The notes below the pieces were generated by a model that was not told the DNA's origin, ran no database searches, and saw only the letters and a program-made list of their open reading frames with translations. Positions 22,374 to 35,904 of a stretch of 37,454 nucleotides of DNA are shown here, piece after piece; the stretch's first letter is position 1; each line of letters starts with the position of its first letter. The stretch comes from Vicinamibacteria bacterium (GTDB lineage Bacteria; Acidobacteriota; Vicinamibacteria; Marinacidobacterales; SMYC01), in NCBI GenBank assembly GCA_035620555.1, contig DASPGQ010000717.1:1-37454 (forward strand), read 5' to 3'. The position numbers and the translations under genes were made by a program.

Positions 22374-23356
22374 GGTCGAGGCACCGGACCGACGCCCTGG
22401 TTGCCATCGTCGGTCCCACGGGGTCGGGGAAGAGCGATCTCGCCGTCGAGCTATCGCGTGCCCTTGGCGGGGAGATCGTGGGATGCGACGCGCTCCAGGT
22501 CTATCGAGGCCTCGACGTAGGCACGGCGAAGCTGCCCCAGCAGGCGAGAGGGGAGGTGCCCCATCATCTGCTCGACGTGGCATCGCCTTCGGACGAGTTC
22601 TCGGCGGCGCGCTATGTCTCGATCGCGACCGAGTGCATCCAGCAGATACGGAACCGGGGGAATCTTCCGATCGTGGTCGGAGGTACGGGACTCTATCTTC
22701 GCGCTCTCCGATATGGATTGTTCGAAGGTCCGTCTCGGGAGCCGACGCTCAGGGCGAGGCTCTGGGGCATCGAGAGGAAACGCCGGGGCAAGCTTCACCG
22801 AATGCTGGCTCGCTGGGACCCGCCCTCTGCGGCCCGCATCCATCCGAACGATTCCGTACGCCTCGTTCGCGCTATCGAGGTTTATCTTTCCAGCGGTCGT
22901 CCGATGAGCTCCATGATGACGGAACGGCGGCGCCCTCTTTCGGGTTTCCGCGATATACTTGTCGGCCTGCGGCCGGAGCGAGCCGCGCTCGCTCTGAGGA
23001 TCGCTGAGCGCGTCGAGTCCATGTACGCGGGCGGATTGGCCGATGAAGTCCGAGGGTTGGTCGCGCGATATGGCATGGCGCTGCCAGCCTTCAAAGCGAT
23101 CGGCTATCGCGAGTGTCTCGCGGCAATGGCGGGTCGAATCGATTGGGACCGTGCGCGGTCCATGACCGAGAAGGCGACGATCCAGTACGCGAAGCGACAG
23201 CTCACTTGGTTCCGCAAGGAGACTGGTGTGACGTGGTTCGATGGCCTGGGCGACGAGCCTTCGGTTCGAAGCACGGTGTTGTGGCATCTGAGGCGGGAGC
23301 TTTCACGAGAGGTGCTTCCGGGTATGGAGAAAGACGATGCAGAAACAGCCCCCTAA
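22358..23356 (+). CDS. miaA: tRNA dimethylallyltransferase MiaA
   Basis: MiaA adds a dimethylallyl group to A37 of tRNAs that read codons starting with U. The 332-aa protein has the P-loop VGPTGSGKSDLAVEL near residues 18-32, then GCDALQVYRGLDVGTAK and PIVVGGTGLYLRAL. The C-terminal EKATIQYAKRQLTWFRKE is a strong family signature. The start is either GTG 22358 or TTG 22370, the latter overlapping the stop of the micro-ORF as TTGA; GTG is used here. It overlaps hfq by 20 bp. The miaA-hfq order is widely conserved in bacteria. Confidence 0.96.
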   Translation: MDRRLRSRHRTDALVAIVGPTGSGKSDLAVELSRALGGEIVGCDALQVYRGLDVGTAKLPQQARGEVPHHLLDVASPSDEFSAARYVSIATECIQQIRNRGNLPIVVGGTGLYLRALRYGLFEGPSREPTLRARLWGIERKRRGKLHRMLARWDPPSAARIHPNDSVRLVRAIEVYLSSGRPMSSMMTERRRPLSGFRDILVGLRPERAALALRIAERVESMYAGGLADEVRGLVARYGMALPAFKAIGYRECLAAMAGRIDWDRARSMTEKATIQYAKRQLTWFRKETGVTWFDGLGDEPSVRSTVLWHLRRELSREVLPGMEKDDAETAP

Positions 23357-23603
23357 TGTGCAGGACAGCTTCCTGAATCACGCTCGTCGCGAGCGCGTGC
23401 CCGTGACCGTGTACCTCGTCAACGGGGCCAAGCTTACCGGACGCATCAAGAACTTCGATCGCTTCGCCATCATTCTCGAAGCCAACGGCGTGGATCAGAT
23501 GCTTTTCAAGCACGCCGTTTCCACCATCAGCGGAAGTCGTCAATTCGGAAACTATATGAACGTGGAGGCTGCGGTGGAGCAGGCCGAGGAGAGGGAAGGC
23601 TAG
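23337..23603 (+). CDS. hfq: RNA chaperone Hfq
   Basis: Hfq hexamers bind small RNAs and mRNAs and help them pair. The 88-aa protein carries both Sm motifs: VQDSFLNHARRERVPVTVYL leading to LVNGAKLTGRIKNFDRFAI, then LFKHAVSTISGSR, where the KH pair lines the proximal RNA site. The C-terminal tail is short and acidic (VEAAVEQAEEREG). ATG 23337 lies 20 bp inside miaA, so translation is probably coupled. An Hfq in this genome means base-pairing small RNAs are possible, which is relevant to the candidate RNA at 32893-33160. Confidence 0.97.
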   Translation: MQKQPPNVQDSFLNHARRERVPVTVYLVNGAKLTGRIKNFDRFAIILEANGVDQMLFKHAVSTISGSRQFGNYMNVEAAVEQAEEREG

Positions 23604-31675: not shown

Positions 31676-32812
31676 TTACGACACATCAACGGGCTCCCCG
31701 TCGTCTTGACTCGCCTCACCGGTGTCAGAATAGCCCCGGGCGAACCGGCGGCGCAACTCGTTTTTCCCCTTGCCCTCCGGGTCGATCGCTCGGAATATCT
31801 TTCGCACGACGGAGGACACGGGCAGGCGTTGGAGCTCGGATTCGCTGGCCCAACGGTGTCTGGTGGGGGGGCGGCCTCTCAGCCTGGCGGCGAACGCGTG
31901 CAAGATGATGCGTCGGTTCATGATCGCATGCCGTACCCGGGCGACCTCCTCTCGAACCTCGATGTCGATGCCGTAGCGTTCGCGGGCCTCCCGCGCCATC
32001 GCAGCGCGCGGTTTCTCTCCGGCAGAGCACTCGCCGTTTGGAAACTCCCAGAGATCCCTCATGAGGCTAGTGTCGACGCGCTGGAACAGGAGATACTTCG
32101 AGCCGCTTCGGACGAGTGCCGCGGCTGCGGTGACGCGTATGGCAACGGGGCGCGGTCCGGTCTCGGGAAGATCGCGCACCCGTCCGTGACGGAGCGCGAC
32201 GCAACTCACCCGAATCGGGCATGAGAGGCAACCCGGGTTGGATTTCTTGCACACCAGGGCGCCCAACTCCATGAGCGCCTGGTTGATCTCCCCGGCGCCA
32301 CGTTCGGGCAGAACATCCTCGGCCAGCTTCCACAAAACGCGTCGGACAGGGCCGGACCGGACGTTGCCGGCGATGCCGAAGAATCGTGACAGCACTCTCG
32401 CCACATTGCCGTCGAGAATGGGCGCCTTCTTGCCGAAAGCGATGGAGACGATCGCTCCGGCGGTATAGCGTCCCACCCCGGGCAATGCCTGCCATCCGTC
32501 CACATCATCGGGGAGCTCCCCTCCGTTCCTTACCAGTATCTTGGCTGCCCGGTGAAGGGCTCTCGCGCGCTCGTAGTAGCCCAGTCCGGACCACTCCGCG
32601 AGCACCTCCTGGTCGGTTGCCCCGGCGAGGCTTTCGAGGTTCGGGAATCGGGCGAGGAATCGCTCGAAATAGGGAATCACCGTCTTGACCGACGTCTGCT
32701 GGAGCATGAGCTCCGAGACCCAGACTCGATAGGGCTCGGGTCGCTCGCGCCACGGAAGCCGGCGGCGATGCCGACGATACCAGCGCAGAAGCCGTTGACG
32801 GTCGATATTCAC
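31676..32812 (-). CDS. mutY: A/G-specific adenine glycosylase MutY
   Basis: MutY removes adenine mispaired with 8-oxoguanine. The 378-aa protein has catalytic Glu34 in WVSELMLQQTSVKTV, the helix-hairpin-helix ALPGVGRYTAGAI, and catalytic Asp134 in ILDGNVARVLSRFFG. The iron-sulfur ligands Cys188, Cys195, Cys198 and Cys204 have canonical 6-2-5 spacing. A NUDIX-like C-terminal domain (from about 225, KYLLFQRVDTSLMRDLWEFP) recognises 8-oxoG. The last 25 residues form a basic-then-acidic tail. GTG 32812 is the start; it overlaps, as GTGA, the stop of an uncertain 85-codon frame upstream. It is the first gene of the minus-strand string. Confidence 0.96.
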   Translation of the reverse strand: MNIDRQRLLRWYRRHRRRLPWRERPEPYRVWVSELMLQQTSVKTVIPYFERFLARFPNLESLAGATDQEVLAEWSGLGYYERARALHRAAKILVRNGGELPDDVDGWQALPGVGRYTAGAIVSIAFGKKAPILDGNVARVLSRFFGIAGNVRSGPVRRVLWKLAEDVLPERGAGEINQALMELGALVCKKSNPGCLSCPIRVSCVALRHGRVRDLPETGPRPVAIRVTAAAALVRSGSKYLLFQRVDTSLMRDLWEFPNGECSAGEKPRAAMAREARERYGIDIEVREEVARVRHAIMNRRIILHAFAARLRGRPPTRHRWASESELQRLPVSSVVRKIFRAIDPEGKGKNELRRRFARGYSDTGEASQDDGEPVDVS

Positions 32813-32892: not shown

Positions 32893-32926
32893 AGAAAACA
32901 GGGCGGTGATCCTCCGACCACCGCCC
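32893..32926 (-). terminator. Intrinsic terminator on the minus strand, upstream of mutY
   Basis: Read on the minus strand, a perfect 8-bp GC stem (GGGCGGTG/CACCGCCC, arms at 32919-32926 and 32901-32908, 10-base loop) is followed at once by TGTTTTCT. This is the classic form of a rho-independent terminator. It stands about 80 bp before the mutY start, so it would end a transcript arising further upstream, between leuS and mutY. Confidence 0.6.
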
Positions 32927-33160
32927 CGCGACGGGACTTCCGACATCGTGCAGGTCGCTAGGAATGGATGCCGGGAGCCCTTCCGATGATCCGGGGAAGC
33001 CTCGGCGCTCCCGAGCACACTCGCCGCCGCCAGTGCCGGAAGTTCCGGGGCAGTCCCCGCGACCATCGAAACGAGAATCTTCGCTTGCCTCAGCAGGAGA
33101 AGACTTTTTCGAGCTCATGTCACTCTAGAACGCCGAACATTCCTCTCGCCTGAGGTTCGG
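32893..33160 (-). ncRNA. Candidate structured small RNA between mutY and leuS
   Basis: The minus strand would be transcribed from near 33160 to the terminator at 32893, about 265 nt. The span is rich in self-complementary pieces. CGGGAGC/GCTCCCG is at 32972-32978 and 33007-33013, with a nested CTTCC/GGAAG. GGGG-cagt-CCCC is at 33047-33058, and CCGGAA-g-TTCCGG at 33036-33048. CCTCAG/CTGAGG pair across 33088-33093 and 33150-33155. It does not contain the conserved cores of tmRNA, RNase P RNA or SRP RNA that I know. A small coding gene (75 codons, ATG 33118) is the alternative, but its protein has no recognisable feature. Confidence 0.35.
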
Positions 33161-33210
33161 GCCCTGTTTACAAGGGGACTGAAACGAGGGTGTCAAGGCC
33201 CGAGCCTCAG
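33150..33210. repeat. 14-bp inverted repeat with 33-base loop
   Basis: The arms CTGAGGTTCGGGCC (33150-33163) and GGCCCGAGCCTCAG (33197-33210) pair over 14 positions with one G-T wobble. The loop holds the promoter-like pair listed separately. A repeat of this length is unlikely by chance and could be a regulator-binding site, an RNA hairpin or a mobile-element remnant. Confidence 0.65.
33167..33196 (-). promoter_or_regulatory. Promoter-like pair on the minus strand between leuS and mutY
   Basis: On the minus strand a perfect -35 hexamer TTGACA (plus 33191-33196) and TGTAAA (plus 33167-33172, four of six -10 matches) are 18 bp apart. Both lie in the 33-base loop between the arms of a 14-bp inverted repeat. 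Transcription would start near 33160 and run away from leuS. Confidence 0.45.
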
Positions 33211-33372
33211 TTCACCGAGAGAATAGGCAAGAGTGATGCCACATGCTGTGAAAGCCTTAACATGAGCCGGGGCAGGGAATTGAGTCGCAAATTACCCGCG
33301 CACTGAGACGTGGACCGTCACCCGAAAGAGACGAAGCGGTCCTCGGCAAGCGACACCAGGAGGAAAGGCGTG

Positions 33373-33381
33373 TGCTAGTAT
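33373..33381 (+). promoter_or_regulatory. Probable extended -10 of the leuS promoter
   Basis: TGCTAGTAT at 33373-33381 fits the extended -10 form TGnTAnnAT. No good -35 is seen upstream; GACACC near 33352-33357 is a weak match at 18 bp. The start point would be near 33388, with AAGAGG in the leader ahead of the leuS ATG. No T-box or other leader structure for an aminoacyl-tRNA synthetase is visible. Confidence 0.4.
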
Positions 33382-33414
33382 CCGATCTCGTCTTGAAAAG
33401 AGGCTAGACAACGC

Positions 33415-35904
33415 ATGGGTAGGCCCTACGACTTCGATGAGATCGAGCGCAAATGGCAGGCTCGGTGGCTCGAGACCGGCGAGTTCGAAGCGAGCGAGAC
33501 GGACGAGCGTCCGAAGTATTACTGCCTCGAGATGCTCCCCTATCCATCGGGCAAGATTCACATGGGTCACGTGCGGAACTACTCAATCGGCGACGCCATC
33601 GCACGGTTCAAACGTTCGAAGGGGTTCAACGTGCTCCATCCCATTGGCTGGGACGCGCTCGGGCTGCCCGCGGAAAATGCCGCACTCAAGCACGGCGCGC
33701 ATCCCGAGGACTGGACCCGCGCGAACATAGCCCATATGAAGCGGCAGCTGCAGCGGTTGGGGTTTTCCTATTCCTGGGATCGTGAGATCGCGACCTGTGA
33801 TCCTGATTACTATCGCTGGAACCAGTGGTTCTTCATCCAGATGTGGAAAAAGGGGCTGGCGTTTCGCAAGAAGGCGGCGGTGAACTGGTGCCCGGTCGAC
33901 CTGACCGTTCTCGCGAACGAACAAGTCGTCGATGGGCGTTGCTGGCGGTGTGACGCCCAGGTCGTTCACAAAGAGCTCGAACAATGGTTCCTGAGGATTA
34001 CCCGATTCGCGGAACAGCTGCTCGCGGACATGGAAGGCCTGTCGGGCTGGCCATCGACGGTCCTCACACTCCAACGCAACTGGATCGGGCGCTCCGAGGG
34101 CAGCGAGATCGAATTCGCCCTGGCCGACCCGATCCACGACGGAGAATCCATCCGGGTGTTCACGACGAGAATCGATACCGTATACGGGGCTACGTTCTTG
34201 GTCCTGGCGCCCGAGCACCCCTTGACCTCTCGTCTGGCGGCATCGAACCCTGCCCTCGCCTCCTACATCGAAACAACGATCCGCGAGGACAAAGAGAAAC
34301 GGCGCCTCGGCGAGGTCGAGCAGACGGGAATCGCAACCGGGCATGATGCGTTGAACCCCTTTACCGGGGAGAGAATCCCCATCTGGGCGGCAAACTACGT
34401 TCTGATGGATTACGGGACCGGTGCGGTCATGGCCGTCCCGGCGCACGACGATCGGGACTTTTCCTTCGCTCGCGCGCATGATCTCCCGATGAAAGCGGTC
34501 ATCCAGCCCCCGTCCGCGGACCTCGACGCCCGGACGATGGAGAAGGCATTCATCGATCACGGTACCCTGGTGGACTCCGGTGAGTTCACCGGACTCCCGA
34601 CGCTCGATGCCATCCGGGCGATGAACGCGAAGATCGAGCGGGAAGGACTGGGAAAATCGGCGGTCACCTACAAGATTCGGGACTGGGGAATCTCGCGGCA
34701 GCGATACTGGGGAACACCGATTCCGATGGTTTACTGCGACGAATGTGGGATCCTTCCGGTGCGAGAGACGGACCTGCCGGTGCTCCTGCCCCGGGACGTC
34801 ACCATCACCGGCAAAGGGGAATCCGTCCTGCGGGACAACCGGAGCTTCCTGGAAACGACCTGCCCCGGGTGCGCCCGCCCGGCCCGCCGTGAAACGGATA
34901 CGATGGATACTTTCGTCGATTCCTCCTGGTACTTCTATCGTTACACCGATCCTCGATACTCGGACGGACCGTTTCGCCCCGAGGTGGCCCGGGACTGGTT
35001 CCCCATCGACGTCTACATCGGTGGCATCGAGCACGCCATCCTTCATCTCATCTACGCACGTTTCTGGACGAAGATGATGCGGGAGCTGGGTCTGACCGCA
35101 GACGCCGAGCCGGTCGACGTTCAGCTCTCTCAGGGGATGGTCATCAAGGACGGGGCGAAGATGTCCAAGAACAAGGGAAACGTGGTCGAGCCCGACGAAG
35201 TGGTCGCCAGATACGGTGCCGACACTTTGAGACTCTATGTTCTCTTCGAGGCGCCGCCGGAGAAGGAAGTCAACTGGACCGATCAACGCCTCGAAGGACC
35301 GGCGCGATTTGTTCAGCGCATCTGGCGGTTCGTGGACAACGAGATCGATGCGCTGGCTTCGGCGTCGCCGATCGAGGGCAACGAGAGCTGGAACGAGCCC
35401 GAGTCATTGCTGAGAAGAAAGACGCACCAGACGATTCAAAGAGTCACTCGCGACATCGAAGAGCGGTTCCACCTGAATACCGCCATCGCCGCGATCATGG
35501 AGCTCGTGAACGAGATCTATCGCGCGGTCGAGCCCCGTCCTCAACGCGACGACACCTGGAAGGTCGTGCGAGAGGCTACCGAGGCGGTTATCCTCCTTCT
35601 GAGCCCCTTCGCGCCCCACCTGGCAGAAGAGCTCTGGGAGACTCTCGGGAACGCGAACGGCCTCCGGTCGGCGGGCTGGCCTCGCTTCGACCCCGTTGTG
35701 GCCGCCGAGGAAAAGACGACGTTCGTGGTCCAGGTCAACGGGAAGCTGCGAGGTCGTATCGAGGTTTCGGTCGACGAAAGCGAGGAAGAAGTGAAGCGGC
35801 TCGCGCTCGCGGACGAGAACGTGAGGAAATTCACCGAAGGCAAAGAGCTCCGCCGGGTCATCGTGGTGCCTCGGCGTCTCGTGAACGTAGTGGTGTCTCC
35901 ATGA
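33415..35904 (+). CDS. leuS: Leucyl-tRNA synthetase
   Basis: The enzyme charges tRNA-Leu and edits wrongly attached amino acids. The 829-aa protein has the class I HIGH box as HMGH (residues 49-52, in YPSGKIHMGHVRNYS) and the KMSKS loop as KMSKN (582-586). A full CP1 editing domain lies between (about 220-410, with TFLVLAPEHPL and the DRDF stretch), followed by the anticodon-binding and C-terminal domains (FVVQVNGKLRGRIEV). Nothing is truncated. Its end overlaps the lptE start by 4 bp (ATGA). The order leuS-lptE-holA is the one found in many Gram-negative bacteria. Confidence 0.97.
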   Translation: MGRPYDFDEIERKWQARWLETGEFEASETDERPKYYCLEMLPYPSGKIHMGHVRNYSIGDAIARFKRSKGFNVLHPIGWDALGLPAENAALKHGAHPEDWTRANIAHMKRQLQRLGFSYSWDREIATCDPDYYRWNQWFFIQMWKKGLAFRKKAAVNWCPVDLTVLANEQVVDGRCWRCDAQVVHKELEQWFLRITRFAEQLLADMEGLSGWPSTVLTLQRNWIGRSEGSEIEFALADPIHDGESIRVFTTRIDTVYGATFLVLAPEHPLTSRLAASNPALASYIETTIREDKEKRRLGEVEQTGIATGHDALNPFTGERIPIWAANYVLMDYGTGAVMAVPAHDDRDFSFARAHDLPMKAVIQPPSADLDARTMEKAFIDHGTLVDSGEFTGLPTLDAIRAMNAKIEREGLGKSAVTYKIRDWGISRQRYWGTPIPMVYCDECGILPVRETDLPVLLPRDVTITGKGESVLRDNRSFLETTCPGCARPARRETDTMDTFVDSSWYFYRYTDPRYSDGPFRPEVARDWFPIDVYIGGIEHAILHLIYARFWTKMMRELGLTADAEPVDVQLSQGMVIKDGAKMSKNKGNVVEPDEVVARYGADTLRLYVLFEAPPEKEVNWTDQRLEGPARFVQRIWRFVDNEIDALASASPIEGNESWNEPESLLRRKTHQTIQRVTRDIEERFHLNTAIAAIMELVNEIYRAVEPRPQRDDTWKVVREATEAVILLLSPFAPHLAEELWETLGNANGLRSAGWPRFDPVVAAEEKTTFVVQVNGKLRGRIEVSVDESEEEVKRLALADENVRKFTEGKELRRVIVVPRRLVNVVVSP

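Follow-up and report, generated by a model that had tools for sequence, protein, structure and literature searches.

A candidate sigma-54-dependent structured RNA encoded divergently from leuS in one family of Acidobacteriota

Comparison of the mutY-leuS gap with that of a relative from another genus points to a stand-alone gene for a regulatory RNA, predicted to be sigma-54-dependent, at 33215-32893 on the minus strand of the 37,454-nucleotide stretch analysed here (the window). We regard this reading, in which an RNA of ~323 nt is transcribed divergently from leuS, as likely. The comparison with the relative, G001, supports a structured element that has been conserved, the strand on which it lies, and the positions of its putative promoter and an upstream dyad. 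A separate minus-strand RNA gene had already been suggested in a preliminary description of this DNA. That suggestion now has support: the element is conserved in G001, it shows compensatory changes, its folding is biased to one strand, and it is independent of mutY. The features discussed below, all on the minus strand, are as follows.

32893..33215, minus: predicted structured RNA of ~323 nt, based on the G001 homolog, fold z-scores, covariation and simulation, with start and end inferred
33150..33210, minus: 5' hairpin CUGAGGCUCGGGCC...GGGCCCGAACCUCAG, the same as the hairpin at L156 7446-7507 in G001, including a U-A to C-G change
32983..33071, minus: central rod (covariance model R1)
33017..33031, minus: invariant apical stretch of the rod, GGCGGCGGCGAGUGU
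32901..32926, minus: terminator-like hairpin GGGCGGUGGUC-GGAG-GAUCACCGCCC, then UGUUUUCU, conserved in G001 with a two-sided U-A to C-G change
33227..33241, minus: predicted sigma-54 -24/-12 element TGGCA-TCACTCT-TGC
33316..33333, minus: putative enhancer-binding-protein site, dyad CGTCTC-TTTCGG-GTGACG, judged from the conserved block and its position relative to the -24 element

Locus and distribution

The gap between mutY (31676-32812, minus strand) and leuS (33415-35904, plus strand) measures 602 bp, and the segment is single copy in the source genome, G000. The family comparison covered four genomes, one per genus (G000-G003). No leuS ortholog was found in G002 and leuS of G003 is cut by a contig end, so that neither can show the element; G001, which belongs to the same family but another genus (LeuS 70% identical), is the only relative with the region upstream of leuS assembled. 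That region is homologous to and collinear with the gap in the window, and it carries a homologous element (L156 7442-7693, plus strand) which, as in the window, is divergent from leuS.

On the other side of the element the two genomes differ. In G001 it points at the 3' end of a convergent gene for a TPR protein and does not adjoin mutY, and it is therefore not a mutY leader. A mutY leader or riboswitch is thus excluded for G001 and unlikely in the window. Nor is there the co-transcription with a conserved downstream gene by which a riboswitch or mutY leader would be recognised, since the gene downstream of the element is mutY in the window and the convergent TPR gene in G001; mutY is a bystander beside the RNA element. 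The TPR protein gene of G001 (~396 aa, L156 7704-8903) lies between mutY and the RNA and has no counterpart at that place in the window. The sister family has mutY co-directional with leuS and directly adjoining it; G001 shares the orientation. The inverted mutY of the window (31676-32812) is a single-gene inversion, the order of the TPR gene and an M20 peptidase being unchanged. We also observed a second, more distant LeuRS-like gene in the source genome (G000:C556:1364-3658), 47% identical to the window LeuS over 790 aa, which is possibly a paralog or binning contamination.

Wider searches yielded little beyond these two genomes. A DNA search of 60 relatives returned only short matches, all within coding sequence, and model R1, run on 100 relatives and 193 genomes of the class, scored convincingly only in G000 and G001. 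A weak R1 match in G094 was rejected as repetitive coding sequence, and weak matches of the full-length model R2 in G007 and G013, among 40 relatives, as ordinary terminators behind another gene. Elsewhere in the class, R1 was run on 34 sequences lying upstream of leuS or at a mutY-leuS junction and gave nothing convincing. Neither the RNA models nor the leuS-upstream scan in the class thus found a homolog outside the family. As far as the examined genomes show, the element appears to travel with leuS inside one family, and the best reading of these sequence comparisons is a new RNA family so far restricted to one bacterial family.

Architecture of the predicted RNA

Three hairpins are common to the window and G001 and follow in the same order: the 5' hairpin, the rod and the terminator-like hairpin. 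The inverted repeat at the 5' end, noted earlier as 14 bp, extends to 17 nt (33150-33166/33194-33210, 88% complementary). At the 3' end, the GC hairpin described as a terminator is present and is followed by TGTTTTCT, but it is missing from the output of a simple terminator scan; the U tract behind it is weaker in G001. All 29 consensus pairs of the rod are kept in G001, seven of them changed on both sides, whereas controls with slid partners reach 0-2 and shuffles reach seven in 2 of 500 cases. The stem around the apex has been rewritten by such paired changes while the apical stretch itself stays identical (15/15). Because it is identical in both genomes, this invariant GGCGGCGGCGAGUGU suggests a contact site.

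Over the whole element, 11 of 58 pairs carry two-sided changes relative to G001. The consensus energy of -66.5 compares with -53.0 +/- 5.5 in simulated pairs; it was reached in 2 of 200 simulations in which the substituted sites were kept and the letters randomised, and in none of 200 with random substituted sites. For the rod alone, 30 of 400 simulations with substituted sites kept match the observed value. Covarying stems in the gaps of relatives had been named as a check on the RNA proposal: the paired changes are indeed there in G001, but a covariation test that takes its structure from the window alone was not significant (p ~0.13-0.14). With covariation that is modest and drawn from two sequences, the window and G001, compensatory change across the stems is good but not final evidence.

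Folding strength points to the same strand. The strong minus-strand folding reported initially was borne out, with -135.9 kcal/mol and z -4.8 for 32893-33160 and z -5.3 against shuffles for 32893-33210, the plus strand of the same stretch giving z -2.9. The G001 element gives z -3.75 on the RNA strand and -1.6 on the opposite one. When the whole window was cut into 268-nt tiles on both strands, the minus-strand tile at 32965 was the lowest of 278 (-4.0). One structural proposal did not hold: CTGAGG segments, three of which had been suggested to pair in alternative ways as in a switch, are not enriched (20 copies in the window against 24.5 expected), and the third copy (33088) is without a conserved pairing role.

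Predicted promoter and alternative readings of the gap

Sigma-54 promoters are of the nitrogen and stress type, and the sigma factor itself is encoded by the organism (rpoN, PF04552, E 1.9e-67 in G000) and by all four family genomes. The 37-kb window has a single TGGCA-N7-TGC, where 0.64 are expected by chance, and G001 likewise has one in 20 kb against an expectation of 0.47, so that the weight of the motif comes from position. The G001 copy (L156 7416-7430) lies at the orthologous position on the same strand, the element precedes the 5' hairpin by exactly 16 nt in both genomes, and the GG-N10-GC sequence by which sigma-54 small RNAs are recognised stands directly upstream at both loci. The same TGGCA-N7-TGC is described as the canonical sigma-54 -24/-12 site of qrr1 (PMC10162802). 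Since the conserved element lies 16 nt before the 5' hairpin, the start is predicted at ~33215, placed 12 nt past the -12 C, and the length at ~323 nt, in place of the ~33160 and ~265 nt first proposed.

Farther upstream, the block 33344-33325 is identical to G001 at 17 of 20 positions, the best-conserved non-RNA part of the gap, and holds the dyad. Its centre lies 83 nt upstream of the -24 element in the window and 82 nt in G001; enhancer-binding proteins usually bind at about such a distance. The combination of dyad (CGTCTC-N6-GWGAC) and sigma-54 element, a pattern derived from these same two loci, occurs once in all of G001, at the RNA locus, and three times in G000, where one further match sits upstream of an ABC-type permease. 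A perfect dyad CGTCCCG-GTTG-CGGGACG, followed by TGGCATCAACTTTGC, shortly precedes an ABC/ADOP-type permease frame (L216 ~1501-1593; G000:C643:1973-2065) and is likely another sigma-54 promoter of this genome. The dyad at the RNA locus is also upstream of leuS and could serve it. Shortly before leuS, an extended -10-like TGTGCTA-N2-AT, spotted by eye in both genomes (TGTGCTAGTAT in the window at 33372-33382, TGTGCTAACAT in L156), is probably the leuS promoter.

The preliminary description had placed the promoter elsewhere, at TTGACA-N18-TGTAAA (33196-33167, minus strand). This pair does exist; it is the only copy in the window, is absent from 100 shuffles and is a fair sigma-70 match. One might therefore suppose a structured RNA gene with a sigma-70-type or unrecognised promoter and a merely coincidental sigma-54-like sequence, which we consider unlikely. 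The pair occupies the loop of the conserved 5' hairpin, and G001 lacks it, having CAGACTTCTTGGCTGGCGCATTCTTACCG instead; a start downstream of the pair would cut the 5' stem. The sigma-54 element has kept its position in both genomes. Because the pair is not conserved and lies inside the loop of the RNA's own hairpin, the 5' end is not at ~33160. Slightly less likely still, the gap might hold only regulatory DNA and a plus-strand 5' leader of leuS, acting as attenuator or operator, with no minus-strand RNA. The position of the element beside leuS in both genomes, the dyad upstream of leuS and the extended -10-like sequence would all fit. Yet plus-strand folding is the weaker in both genomes (z -2.9 and -1.6), and between the 5' hairpin and leuS this strand folds much as its shuffles do (z -0.2). 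Outside the dyad block there is little conservation in the half of the gap next to leuS, and the hairpin followed by U works on the minus strand only.

Two further explanations do away with a functional RNA altogether. Chance folding of a spacer, or a repeat or MITE-like palindrome, might be entertained for a sequence that is GC-rich and can be compared in few genomes; we think it improbable, as the segment is single copy in the genome and has been kept across genera with paired changes while its flanks diverged. A short protein gene, in the form of a 75-aa frame at 33118-32891 on the minus strand, is highly improbable. Its 75 codons are open and the same strand is also open across the rod in G001; nevertheless, substitutions are spread nearly evenly over the codon positions (21/60, 23/58 and 28/57, the third position not clearly standing out), the frame is broken relative to G001 by indels of 23, 14, 32, 5 and 1 nt, and there is no Pfam match. 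The protein-coding signal that was to count against an RNA is thus not seen in this frame.

Proposed mechanism and known systems

As for transcription, exact ends, the activator, the mode of action and the targets of the sigma-54-dependent RNA, we infer the following. An activated enhancer-binding protein on the dyad (33316-33333) would remodel sigma-54 RNA polymerase at 33241-33227. Transcription would start at ~33215 and end past the hairpin at 32901-32926. The product, ~323 nt long (~252 nt in G001), would carry in order the 5' hairpin, a middle part that varies, the long rod topped by its constant loop, and the terminator hairpin. Such an RNA would most likely be trans-acting in whatever condition its activator senses, and its constant apical stretch may make contact with a protein or with the mRNAs it targets. 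Hfq, which, as previously pointed out, is encoded in the window (23337-23603), might take part.

No Rfam family matches the window at its gathering score, and none comes near its cut-off at either the window or the G001 locus; the unmatched families include 6S, tmRNA, RNase P, SRP, Qrr, GlmY, CrcZ and others. The nearest scores, asX1 (RF02235; 22.8 bits against a gathering score of 70) and mir-8932 (RF03810; 18.9 against 50), are chance-level hairpin likeness only. The tRNA and tmRNA search likewise found none in the gap, in agreement with the earlier statement that conserved cores of tmRNA, RNase P and SRP RNA are absent.

The predicted control logic is nevertheless familiar. CrcZ is an RNA of a size similar to that predicted here. 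Together with CrcY, it is an RpoN-dependent RNA of Pseudomonadaceae (PMC6292655), as is predicted here; the present RNA differs in lacking an Rfam match, and no CA-rich Hfq-binding repeats were seen in it. The Qrr small RNAs of Vibrionaceae depend on sigma-54 and are activated by LuxO/SypG (PMC10162802). They share with our candidate a TGGCA-N7-TGC -24/-12 element and an hfq gene in the genome, and their upstream activator sites may have a counterpart in the putative dyad; unlike them, the RNA described here is ~323 nt with a long rod, matches no Rfam family and belongs to another phylum. GlmY, whose sigma-54 promoter is activated by QseF/GlrR (PMC7073468), is also a regulatory RNA under an enhancer-binding activator, as predicted here, but shows no sequence or Rfam similarity and has another neighbourhood, and no overlapping sigma-70 promoter was recognised at our locus. 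On the best reading, the control logic is comparable to that of Qrr and GlmY, without membership of either family.

A literature search found no description of a sigma-54-dependent small RNA in Acidobacteriota. There is, in our estimate, about an even chance that the element stands for a family not described before, made up of large sigma-54-controlled RNAs of 250-320 nt, whose fast-evolving rod would present an invariant 15-nt apical effector and so link the signal of an enhancer-binding protein to a regulon. The case also illustrates that one syntenic relative can correct a wrong promoter call. If the RNA is confirmed, a poorly studied phylum would gain an RNA regulator together with its promoter, the probable site of its activator and an unvarying sequence as candidate effector, and the signal and targets of this RNA would become directly testable.
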